Positions 32,784-43,945 of a stretch of 64,000 bases of DNA are shown piece after piece (position 1 is the first letter of the stretch; every line of letters starts with the position of its first letter). Location of the stretch: NCBI GenBank assembly GCA_021796215.1, contig JAJYOK010000001.1:248001-312000 (forward strand), in the 5' to 3' direction. The notes under the pieces were generated by a model. It made no database searches. It was not told where the DNA came from and saw nothing but the letters and a program-made list of their open reading frames with translations. Origin of the DNA: Bacteroidota bacterium. Lineage in GTDB: Bacteria; Bacteroidota; Ignavibacteria; UBA10030; UBA8401. The position numbers and the translations under genes were made by a program.

Positions 32784-32795
32784 ATAATTAATAAT
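32779..32795 (+). repeat. Left arm of 17-bp inverted repeat around the four-helix-bundle gene
   Basis: AATGAATAATTAATAAT. It overlaps the aconitase stop codon and is the exact reverse complement of 33186-33202. A second, shorter GAATAATT motif follows at 32803. Confidence 0.85.
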
Positions 32796-32818
32796 TCACA
32801 ATGAATAATTGAAAGACA

Positions 32819-33193
32819 GTGTGTGAAAGAAAACATGTCGTTCAAGAAAAGAGCTATACATTTGCTCTTGAAATACTGAAGCTGTGCCGCTGGCTTTCCG
32901 AGACAAAGAAAGAATATGTTATTTCCAAACAATTGCTTAAAAGCGGGACATCCATTGGTGCAAATGTAGAGGAAGCAATTGGAGCGCAATCGAGGAAAGA
33001 TTTTCACGCCAAATTAACTATTGCATGCAAGGAAGCTAGGGAAACTCATTTCTGGATTCGGTTGTTACAAGATGCAGATATACTTGACAGAAAGATTGCT
33101 GAGAAAACCTTAAATGATTGCACAGAGTTGCTGAAACTTCTCACAAGTATTTTGAGAACATTGCAGGCAAAAATAAAAATTATTCATTATTAA
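32819..33193 (+). CDS. Four-helix-bundle protein (S23 / 23S rRNA intervening-sequence family)
   Basis: 124 aa. VVQEKSYTFALEILKLCRWL, then LLKSGTSIGANVEEAIGAQSRKDF and a helix ARETHFWIRLLQDADI are the standard features of the S23-type four-helix-bundle family (TIGR02436), first seen as the reading frame of intervening sequences in 23S rRNA genes. Members are thought to bind nucleic acid, but the role is unknown. The start is GTG at 32819. The gene is more A+T-rich than its neighbours, is framed by a perfect 17-bp inverted repeat, and sits between aconitase and bacilliredoxin, so it looks inserted. Confidence 0.9.
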   Translation: MCERKHVVQEKSYTFALEILKLCRWLSETKKEYVISKQLLKSGTSIGANVEEAIGAQSRKDFHAKLTIACKEARETHFWIRLLQDADILDRKIAEKTLNDCTELLKLLTSILRTLQAKIKIIHY

Positions 33194-33202
33194 TTATTCA
33201 TT
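33186..33202 (+). repeat. Right arm of 17-bp inverted repeat around the four-helix-bundle gene
   Basis: ATTATTAATTATTCATT overlaps the last codons of the gene and ends just before the GAGG ribosome site of the bacilliredoxin gene. Exact complement of 32779-32795. Confidence 0.85.
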
Positions 33203-37810: not shown

Positions 37811-39244
<1,434 letters not shown>

Positions 39245-39263
39245 CTGCTCCGCGAACTTTTTT

Positions 39264-39281
39264 ACCGCAAAGGGCGCAAAG
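39264..39281 (+). repeat. Left arm of 18-bp inverted repeat around the GxxExxY gene
   Basis: ACCGCAAAGGGCGCAAAG, 20 nt after the atpD stop. Exact reverse complement of 39663-39680. Confidence 0.92.
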
Positions 39282-39283
39282 AA

Positions 39284-39661
39284 ATGGATGAAAATGAACT
39301 TTCGAAAGTCATAATCGGATATGCAATGGAAGTTCATTCGGAATTGGGCCCTGGCTTGCTGGAATCTGTGTATGAATCGTGCCTGGAATATGAGTTGAAA
39401 CAGGGTGGATTCTATGTTGAGAGACAAAAGCCAGTTCCAGTTTTGTATCATGATGTAAATATAGATTGTGGCTTTCGCTTGGATTTATTTGTTGAAAAGA
39501 AGTTGATCATTGAATTGAAAGCAGTTGATGCCATCAACAATATTCATCTGGCACAAACGTTGACGTATCTTAAATTAACAAGCTGTAAGCTCGCACTCTT
39601 GATTAATTTCAATGTTCTTCATTTGAAAGATGGCATCAAAAGAGTCGTTAATAAATTATAA
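39284..39661 (+). CDS. GxxExxY family protein
   Basis: 125 aa. The family signature is seen in HSELGPGLLESVYESCLEYEL (GxxExxY, near residues 24-30), followed by RQKPVPVLY, RLDLFVEKKLIIELKAV and a helix HLAQTLTYLKLTSCKLALLINFN. The RLDLFV...ELKAV layout resembles PD-(D/E)XK nuclease cores, but no activity is established for the family. Its start lies 2 nt after the left arm and its stop 1 nt before the right arm of a perfect 18-bp inverted repeat, inside the atpD-atpC operon. A mobile cassette is the simplest reading. Confidence 0.92.
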   Translation: MDENELSKVIIGYAMEVHSELGPGLLESVYESCLEYELKQGGFYVERQKPVPVLYHDVNIDCGFRLDLFVEKKLIIELKAVDAINNIHLAQTLTYLKLTSCKLALLINFNVLHLKDGIKRVVNKL

Positions 39662-39662
39662 A

Positions 39663-39680
39663 CTTTGCGCCCTTTGCGGT
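39663..39680 (+). repeat. Right arm of 18-bp inverted repeat around the GxxExxY gene
   Basis: CTTTGCGCCCTTTGCGGT, immediately after the GxxExxY stop and 26 nt before atpC. Confidence 0.92.
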
Positions 39681-39706
39681 GAGTAATTACGGGGCAATGT
39701 AATTTT

Positions 39707-40111
39707 ATGGCAGACAAACATTTCTTACTCGATATTGTTACGCCGACGAAAACCGTTTTTTCAGGAATGGTCGGAAGTTTTTCTGCGCCGGGATTGGCGG
39801 GAAGTTTTCAGGTGTTGTTCAACCACGCACCGCTGCTTGCGGCAATCGGCATTGGTGAAGTGAAAGTTCTCGATGCTTCGGGAACGGAAGAACATTTTGC
39901 AACGAGCGGCGGCTTTGCCGAAGTCAATGGCAATAAAGTCATTTTGCTTGCGGAAACTGCCGAGCGTTCCGACAGTATTGACGTGAAACGAGCGGAAGAA
40001 GCGAAGCAACGCGCGTTGGAACGTCTTGAAAAAGAAGAAGAGAAGGATGAGCAGCGTGCCCGTGCGGCGCTTGCTCGTGCTATCAACCGGCTTAAAGTTG
40101 CGGGAACGTGA
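39707..40111 (+). CDS. atpC: ATP synthase F1 subunit epsilon
   Basis: 134 aa. The N-terminal beta-sandwich (LLDIVTPTKTVFSGMVGSF, FQVLFNHAPLLAAIGIGEV, SGGFAEVNGNKVILLAETAE) matches epsilon, and the C-terminal helical hairpin RAEEAKQRALERLEKEE...ARAALARAINRL completes it. Epsilon couples F1 to the rotor and can inhibit ATP hydrolysis. It is the partner of atpD and is now 462 nt away because of the inserted cassette. Confidence 0.95.
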   Translation: MADKHFLLDIVTPTKTVFSGMVGSFSAPGLAGSFQVLFNHAPLLAAIGIGEVKVLDASGTEEHFATSGGFAEVNGNKVILLAETAERSDSIDVKRAEEAKQRALERLEKEEEKDEQRARAALARAINRLKVAGT

Positions 40112-42350: not shown

Positions 42351-43448
42351 GTGAAAGAGCAACCAAATATTTTTGCAGTCATTATGGCGGGCGGAATCGG
42401 CTCCCGGTTTTGGCCCCGAAGCCGGGAAAAATCCCCGAAACAGCTTCTGGAGATTTCCGGCAAAAACACGATGATACAAAATACCGTTCACCGGTTGAAA
42501 GGTTTCATTCCGGAAAAACAGATGTTTGTTGTGACAAATAAAGTGCAGAAGAACGGAGTGATGAAGCAGCTGCCGGAGATTCCGTCGGAAAATATTATTG
42601 TCGAGCCGGTCGGGCGCAATACTGCACCGTGCATCGGTTTGGCAGCGATGTTTGTCAATCGTGTCGATCCAGAAGGCGTGATGATCGTCTTACCGGCAGA
42701 TCATATTATTCAGAATGAGGAGGAATTTCTTCGCTTGTTGGATGTTGGTGTTCGTGCCGCGTACGAATCGTCTGCGTTGGTGACTATCGGCATTAAGCCG
42801 GACCGCCCCGAAACAGGATACGGCTACATTCAAATTGATGAAGAACCGGGCGCGAAAAATCCGTACATTGACCGCGGTGTGTACCGTGTAAAAACTTTTG
42901 CAGAAAAACCGAATCCGCATACTGCGCAGCGCTTTTTGGAAAGCGGAGATTTCTTGTGGAACAGCGGGATGTTCATCTGGCGTGCCGATGTCATTCTGAA
43001 TGAGATCAAAAAATCGCTTCCCGAAACAAGTGCACAGTTGATGAATATCGAGGAGTCGCTGGGTACATCGTTGTTCGAACAAAATCTTGAGCGTGCGTAC
43101 GGCGTGATTCGCGGTATCTCTATTGATTACGGCGTTATGGAAAAAGCCGAACATGTCTTTGTTCTCAAAGGAGATTTCGGCTGGAATGATGTCGGCTCGT
43201 GGGATGAGGTGACAAGAATTACCGAGCACGATGAACACGGGAATCATTTTGAAGGGAAAGTCATTCCGGTGAATACATCGAACGCGTTTATTCATTCAAG
43301 CGGAAAGCTCATCGCAACAGTCGGAATAGACGATATCATTGTCATTGATACGGACGATGCGCTGCTCATCTGTAAACGCGGTGCCTCACAGGATGTGAAA
43401 GAAATTGTTGATCATCTTCGCCGCAAACAAATGAACGAGTATCTTTGA
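42351..43448 (+). CDS. manC: Mannose-1-phosphate guanylyltransferase
   Basis: 365 aa. The nucleotidyltransferase signature MAGGIGSRFWPRSREKSPKQ (12-31), the VLPADHII metal-binding segment, GYIQIDE, FAEKPN and WNSGMFIWRAD are typical of GDP-mannose pyrophosphorylase. It lacks the fused phosphomannose isomerase domain of long ManC enzymes. GDP-mannose feeds glycan synthesis, such as the locus at 59-64 kb. The start is GTG with GGAGA 6 nt upstream. Confidence 0.95.
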   Translation: MKEQPNIFAVIMAGGIGSRFWPRSREKSPKQLLEISGKNTMIQNTVHRLKGFIPEKQMFVVTNKVQKNGVMKQLPEIPSENIIVEPVGRNTAPCIGLAAMFVNRVDPEGVMIVLPADHIIQNEEEFLRLLDVGVRAAYESSALVTIGIKPDRPETGYGYIQIDEEPGAKNPYIDRGVYRVKTFAEKPNPHTAQRFLESGDFLWNSGMFIWRADVILNEIKKSLPETSAQLMNIEESLGTSLFEQNLERAYGVIRGISIDYGVMEKAEHVFVLKGDFGWNDVGSWDEVTRITEHDEHGNHFEGKVIPVNTSNAFIHSSGKLIATVGIDDIIVIDTDDALLICKRGASQDVKEIVDHLRRKQMNEYL

Positions 43449-43945
43449 AAGTTCAAAGTCAAAAGTTGAAAGTTGAAAGTTCATGGGTAATATTCTTTTT
43501 TTTGTTTTTTATCGGGGGATGTGTTTCTTCGCCGCGCTTTACAGAAAAGCCGCACGAGCGTTCTTCTGAGAGTCTGCCTGTCGGACAGGCAGGCAAGCAA
43601 GCGGCTGCTGCCCAGCCAGGCAAAGCGCTGCTCACGCTTGAAGGCATTGCATCGTATTATGCGGATGATTTTAACGGCAAGAAAACTGCTAACGGCGAAA
43701 CGTATGACATGAACGGACTCACAGCGGCACATCGCTCATTACCGTTCGGAACAAAAGTCCGCGTGACGAATCTTGATAACGGCAAACAAGTTGTCGTTCG
43801 CATTAATGACCGCGGTCCTTTTCAATTAAGCCGCATTATTGATTTGTCTCTCGGCGCGGCGAAAGAATTAGACATGATTGCAAAAGGTACGGCAAAAGTG
43901 AAATTGGAAGTGATCGAGTGGGGAGATAATCAGTACACGCGGTGA
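43445..43945 (+). CDS. rlpA: RlpA-like septal lytic transglycosylase lipoprotein
   Basis: 166 aa. A hydrophobic signal (about 13-25) ends in FIGGC, a lipobox. After a linker the double-psi beta-barrel starts at IASYYADDFNGKKTANGETYDM, with AAHRSLPFGTKVRVTN and VRINDRGPF holding the catalytic Asp and neighbouring residues. It cuts naked glycan strands at the septum. No SPOR domain is present. The start is TTG at 43445 (overlapping the manC stop as TTGA) or a TTG 21 nt later; both lie in AAAGTTGA-type short repeats. The linker codes a palindromic insert (43574-43592). Confidence 0.9.
   Translation: MKVQSQKLKVESSWVIFFFLFFIGGCVSSPRFTEKPHERSSESLPVGQAGKQAAAAQPGKALLTLEGIASYYADDFNGKKTANGETYDMNGLTAAHRSLPFGTKVRVTNLDNGKQVVVRINDRGPFQLSRIIDLSLGAAKELDMIAKGTAKVKLEVIEWGDNQYTR
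43574..43592. repeat. In-frame palindrome in the rlpA linker
   Basis: CTGCCTG-TCGGA-CAGGCAG, followed by GCAAGCAAG, read as LPVGQAGKQ in the protein. A related CTGCC/GGCAG palindrome lies in the GNAT gene (5012-5025). Confidence 0.65.

Follow-up and report, generated by a model that had tools for sequence, protein, structure and literature searches.

The element between atpD and atpC

The window, the whole 64-kb stretch of DNA that was analysed, carries a GxxExxY gene of 378 bp (39284-39661, forward strand, 125 aa). It is flanked upstream by atpD (37832-39244, forward) and downstream by atpC (39707-40111, forward). The gene is enclosed by an exact 18-bp inverted repeat. The left arm, ACCGCAAAGGGCGCAAAG (39264-39281, forward), holds two CRCNRAG units at 39266-39272 and 39275-39281, with a spacing of 9. 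The right arm (39663-39680, reverse strand) is its exact reverse complement, with units at 39663-39669 and 39672-39678. Each arm is made of two 7-bp units, CGCAAAG. An earlier note on this DNA had described a gene that fills the space between the arms with 1-2 nt to spare, and this is what we found, with the ATG at 39284 placed 2 nt past the left arm and the right arm starting one base past the stop codon (39659-39661). The distances given there, 20 nt from atpD and 2 nt from the stop, become 19 nt past the atpD stop, whose end is at 39244, and one base.

With up to three mismatches allowed, the 18-mer occurs at only two places in the window, the two arms. In shuffled sequence of 64 kb, 0.07 matches are expected, and none of 100 shuffles reached two. 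A scan of the element region against Rfam gave no family above its gathering score. A search of the element for a promoter or terminator of its own gave nothing beyond chance level.

The atpD-atpC spacer of the window, at 462 nt, has no equal in the 28 genomes compared from the order. Read at the base level, the spacer measures between -4 and 51 nt in all but one of the 27 others, which bears out the claim that the unit splits a normally tight pair of genes. Within the genus, the spacer is 24 nt in G002, whose atpD protein is 95.5% identical, and 184 nt in G001, where it contains no gene and is filled with other repeats. The insertion is lineage-specific. In the search for target duplications, the bases adjoining the arms were too diverged in this same-genus comparison for base-level alignment. 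As a separate observation, the G001 spacer (L086) contains a heptamer-like array and a REP-like palindrome, TCATTCCCGCGAAAGCGGGAATCC; the spacer is colonised by different repeats in the window genome and in this congener.

The window genome has five intact GxxExxY genes and a decayed one, with stops and an internal deletion. Searching it with the 18-mer pattern led to further places with no gene. When aligned to the window element, L006, L009, L013, L016 and L017 each match both of its ends, the middle being absent. L009, L013, L016 and L017 are gene-less copies, whose matched ends take in the gene start. Most of the five also match outside the 18-mers, where TTTTTT precedes the left one and GAATAATTA follows the right one, and share the first GxxExxY codons. 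By this alignment, all five are internal-deletion derivatives. Since they keep both ends, the moving unit spans about 39258-39689. Its outer left edge is a T-tract (39258-39263, forward), kept in the internally deleted copies, and its outer right edge is GAGTAATTA (39681-39689, forward), where GAATAATTA is the consensus in other copies of the genome. The exact 18-bp pair of the earlier note stands, but not as the limit of the element, which continues about 6-9 nt outside when aligned with the other copies.

The GxxExxY protein

The window gene is a full member of the GxxExxY/PDDEXK_3 family, with 150.4 bits (cut-off 35, E 2.5e-44) for TIGR04256 and 146.1 bits (cut-off 22, E 7.5e-43) for PF13366. 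The residues E27, D67 and E77-x-K79 are present; all four positions do not vary among 11 diverse proteins and vary little or not at all among 30. The catalytic E...D...E-x-K and the core fold of the predicted structure place it among the PD-(D/E)XK nucleases. The fold is predicted with a pLDDT of 94.4, and the best structural match is Cas4 SSO0001 (Z 9.5). Next are Holliday-junction resolvases and restriction enzymes, near Z 7, whose mutual order is not rankable. A sequence search of the PDB gave no match. The median dN/dS is 0.11 among Nostoc copies, a sign of strong purifying selection. The protein is maintained and looks like an active nuclease.

The gene is rare on plasmids, in 8 of 72,556 records, and was not found in the phage collection searched; these collections have too few copies to yield empty sites. 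A search of the open-access literature for the arm sequences, GxxExxY and PF13366 turned up no paper that describes arms, solo repeats or mobility.

Arms around homologous genes

Most GxxExxY loci of the order (65 of 75) have an inverted-repeat score of at least 14, with shuffles at about 9. For 79 loci of other groups, mostly Bacteroidota and also Nostocaceae, a spirochaete and Neomarinimicrobiota, 72% reach this score versus 3.8% of shifted controls. Arms are also seen around GxxExxY genes on records of the plasmid collection. Homologues are thus flanked by arms of the same type, neither bare nor accompanied by randomly placed repeats, which favours the association proposed in the earlier note.

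In the homologue arms, a 7-bp word, usually CRCNRAG, is repeated in tandem every 8-12 bp, and the sequence differs from that of the window element's arms. Other loci have CRCNRAT-type words, and a few have others, such as CGCAATGG. A locus has one uniform word, and this word differs from locus to locus.

Some single loci deserve mention. In a Dyadobacter element with an arm word of the CGCAATGG type (L208, left of 2501), the left arm is tandemly triplicated with a period of about 100 bp, the copies being 93-95% identical. A GxxExxY gene on a fusobacterial plasmid (L215, about 2501-2875) has long flanking repeats (CAGATTTAATCCGTGTACCTAT) that are direct, not inverted. Two elements with different arm words (L056 and L128), from two species of one genus, adjoin the same downstream gene, a possible insertion hot spot.

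Arrays and gene presence

In the order, arrays were counted by a three-unit pattern search. Among its 41 genomes, the median number of sites is 20 in the 29 with GxxExxY and 0 in the 12 without it (Spearman 0.76). Among 198 genomes of the phylum, 1,987 sites are found in the 101 with the gene and 131 in the 97 without it, close to the 72 of the control. Kinship among the genomes inflates the p-values in both sets (Fisher 3e-7 for the order, 9e-13 for the phylum), and the contrast is large. Arrays are nearly confined to genomes having the GxxExxY gene.

The exceptions with arrays and no gene are few genomes, among them G002, a close relative and the only clear exception in the order, with 11 arrays, and G258 with 27. 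CRCNRAG arrays are absent from some gene-bearing genomes, part of which use GAT-type or CGCAATGG-type words. Inspection of gene-less sites in the order showed mainly paired arrays, which occur in two orientations and enclose either a short loop or a short AT-rich centre. In the A-type gene-less hairpins, the units point outward. The association of arms with the gene needs one qualification, namely that gene-less arrays are common, mostly as paired hairpins or internal-deletion derivatives.

On inspection we dropped the idea that all Nostoc arrays are solo copies; many are non-palindromic and lie within other repeat families. Single Nostoc CRCNRAG arrays (L283, L284, L298, L308) often stand behind an AACGAAC leader. 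Some of them are nested in a palindrome, AGGACTTACGCA...TGCGTAAGTCCT, a different repeat family with the word in common.

Mobility and placement

In 118 Nostocaceae, one element family is found at several unrelated sites, where similarity ends at TTTAAACGC...GCGTTTAAA. One site is intact, internally deleted, hairpin-only or apparently empty in different species, and several seemingly empty Nostoc sites are decayed copies. We searched for target duplications in these genomes and in the genus g2, where the flanks beside the arms were unalignable to the base or remnants were present. These data show a discrete unit whose ends are conserved and which occurs at many unrelated intergenic sites, decays by internal deletion and has been mobile over evolutionary time.

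One unit at unrelated sites, with sharp ends at inverted repeats, is one mark of an insertion sequence or a MITE. The likeness extends to gene-less derivatives, multiple copies and a patchy distribution. The GxxExxY element differs in having no DDE or HUH transposase and in its word-array arms, which vary by locus.

Another reading takes the arrays as regulatory or structural repeats of the host, namely binding sites for a GxxExxY-based system of, for instance, repair or chromosome organisation, spread mainly vertically and not selfish. Purifying selection on GxxExxY would fit, as would orthologous retention at one site across Nostocaceae, intergenic placement directly after genes and the near absence from plasmids and phages. 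The patchy insertion among close relatives, the many decayed copies and the presence of the same element with sharp ends at unrelated sites speak against it, and we hold it to be quite improbable. We give less credit still to an element of the homing-endonuclease kind, which would cut one specific empty target and be copied in by recombination. The cargo is a nuclease and the Nostocaceae sites near gene ends recur, but within the window genome the insertion sites are diverse, genomes usually have several copies and the moving unit includes the terminal inverted arms.

Intact copies between co-directional genes lie in sense in 51 cases and in antisense in 4. The upstream gene is co-directional with the intact copy in 63 of 69. 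Since the element yielded no promoter, expression by read-through would be the simplest reason for the sense placement.

Arm word, base pairing and protein

Spacing and pairing statistics cover the 66 of 154 elements with at least two units detected on both sides, a set in which diverged arms are under-represented. Left and right spacing vectors are identical in 39 of the 47 elements with equal unit numbers, compared with 28% between loci. Units of one locus that do not pair agree at 0.93 for position 2 and 0.82 for position 5, while the values between loci are 0.51 and 0.49. Paired units reach 0.92, 0.58 and 0.83 at positions 2, 4 and 5, versus 0.93, 0.63 and 0.82 for non-paired ones (permutation p=0.88). 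Pairing thus adds nothing to the likeness of units, so that a recognised word is maintained and not a base-paired stem. The stem of the earlier note finds no support, since pairing is not maintained at variable positions, and an explanation by an RNA stem only, as the main driver, is rejected on the same test.

A wider RNA reading is that the arms pair in the transcript and RNase III excises the unit, so that insertion in an operon is tolerated and the protein is incidental. There is a precedent in the intervening sequence (IVS) of the Coxiella 23S rRNA, where terminal inverted repeats with tandem heptamers around S23 are cut by RNase III (PMC4990558). The transcript of the window element is predicted to be closed by a 21-bp stem of the two arms (MFE -130, against -102 when shuffled, z -4.65), and the sense bias of 51:4 agrees with such a role. 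Nevertheless, this reading is unlikely given the lack of excess complementarity in paired units, the word identity kept in all units, the outward units of A-type hairpins and the co-variation of protein clade and arm word. Young copies may have an RNA role, although evolution does not keep the pairing.

When arm words are mapped as labels on a tree of 91 proteins, CRCNRAG (49) and CRCNRAT (16) require 3 changes. With shuffled labels the average is 14.5 and the minimum 10 (300 shuffles). On this tree the arm word follows the protein clade, which is co-inheritance at least. The linkage suggests that the protein reads the arm word, and co-inheritance alone could yield part of the correlation. A locus with GAT-type arms (L100) sits on a long protein branch within the CRCNRAG clade. 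It is possibly a word switch with fast protein change, useful for specificity testing.

The unit had been described as having no transposase. This has to be revised, as the cargo encodes a PD-(D/E)XK nuclease that strong purifying selection maintains and whose clades track the arm word. The gene is therefore likelier to supply the enzyme of mobility or recognition than to travel as a passenger in trans. The passenger version would be a passive cassette, moved by an unrelated transposase or reverse transcriptase, with GxxExxY as cargo of some other function. It draws on the lack of a canonical transposase, the existence of gene-less copies and a plan common to S23 and GxxExxY cargos. A common trans-acting enzyme would not lead one to expect array abundance to track GxxExxY presence, nor arm words to track its clades, and the cargo is a conserved nuclease; we find this version hardly probable. 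For retro-insertion, which had also been suggested, we found no evidence.

A possible mechanism

It is fairly probable that the unit is a minimal mobile element whose own PD-(D/E)XK nuclease recognises the word arrays and acts at the element ends. Recognition, cleavage and the movement step we infer from sequence. Counting against this reading are the few genomes that have arrays and no gene, the gene-bearing ones that lack CRCNRAG arrays, the non-palindromic Nostoc arrays, and the rarity of the gene on plasmids and its absence from the phages searched. The GxxExxY protein would bind the arm words, probably as several subunits along the array, about one helical turn apart. The nuclease would cut at or near the element ends, and host repair or replication would then move or copy the element. 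Expression may come from read-through of the upstream gene, which would explain the sense placement just behind a co-directional gene. The gene-less hairpins would have arisen by deletion or would serve as substrates in trans. Since arm words co-vary with protein clades, exchanging words and proteins offers a direct test of recognition.

The element may work like a REP/RAYT pair with another enzyme and other repeats. In REP/REPIN systems with RAYT (TnpA_REP), a single chromosomal enzyme gene is flanked by inverted copies of a short repeat (PMC2817692, PMC3116915, PMC3733652). Both systems have many gene-less palindromes, co-occurrence of gene and repeat family, and arrays in alternating orientations. 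In the GxxExxY case, the repeats flank the gene and many solo palindromes are nearly confined to gene-bearing genomes. RAYT, however, is a Y1 (HUH) tyrosine transposase, whereas the only ORF of the element encodes a PD-(D/E)XK enzyme. Where REP has one tagged hairpin, the GxxExxY arms repeat a 7-bp word in tandem (CRCNRAG, CRCNRAT and others), and many copies without the gene arose from the gene-bearing unit by internal deletion.

The S23 unit and related elements

The window contains another unit (32786-33202, forward), with an S23 gene (four-helix bundle, PF05635; CDS 32819-33193) between AT-rich arms at 32786-32810 and 33178-33202. Its arms contain short tandem units, and it belongs to a different element family from the GxxExxY unit. 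The earlier note saw in it the same plan with a different cargo and repeat. We agree: 83% of the S23 genes in the order carry arms, against 1.8% of controls, and these are private heptamer arms. In 15 arms chosen by eye, the 7-nt tandem units give an autocorrelation of 0.77 at 7 and 0.81 at 14. Since S23 and GxxExxY genes are both armed, one design serves unrelated proteins with different words.

The GxxExxY element also resembles the IVS of bacterial 23S rRNA, such as that of Coxiella (PMC4990558), in its length of about 0.4-0.45 kb, the single small ORF, the absence of a transposase, the terminal inverted repeats with tandem short units and the decay of the ORF. An IVS lies in 23S rRNA and carries S23/IVP, whereas the window element lies between protein genes and carries a nuclease without an S23 domain. 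The period is about 8-12 in the GxxExxY unit and 7 in the IVS, and GxxExxY pairing is not conserved. The Coxiella IVS is cut by RNase III; in the GxxExxY element the stem is a predicted one.

The earlier note's interpretation holds in part, for the discrete lineage-specific insertion, the armed homologues and the S23 unit of the same plan. In a wider and more tentative reading, to which we give a little less than even chances, the GxxExxY elements would form an undescribed class of autonomous bacterial mobile elements, each driven by a stand-alone PD-(D/E)XK nuclease that reads its own, co-diverging word arrays. The class would be present in about half of the phylum genomes sampled and also in cyanobacteria and spirochaetes, with S23/IVP as a sister design using 7-nt words. 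If so, classical rRNA intervening sequences would belong to a larger class of word-array elements, and a widespread class of intergenic repeats would be explained. GxxExxY, a very common nuclease family of unknown role, would gain a function and a mechanism. The old question of how 23S rRNA IVS move would be reopened by the same architecture outside rRNA with two unrelated proteins.

Finally, a heptamer tandem array, TTTGAAAGTTCAAAGTCAAAAGTTGAAA (43444-43471), overlaps the start of the ORF at 43445-43945 (MKVQSQKLKVESS...). It is probably what remains of an S23-type arm that is read as coding sequence.
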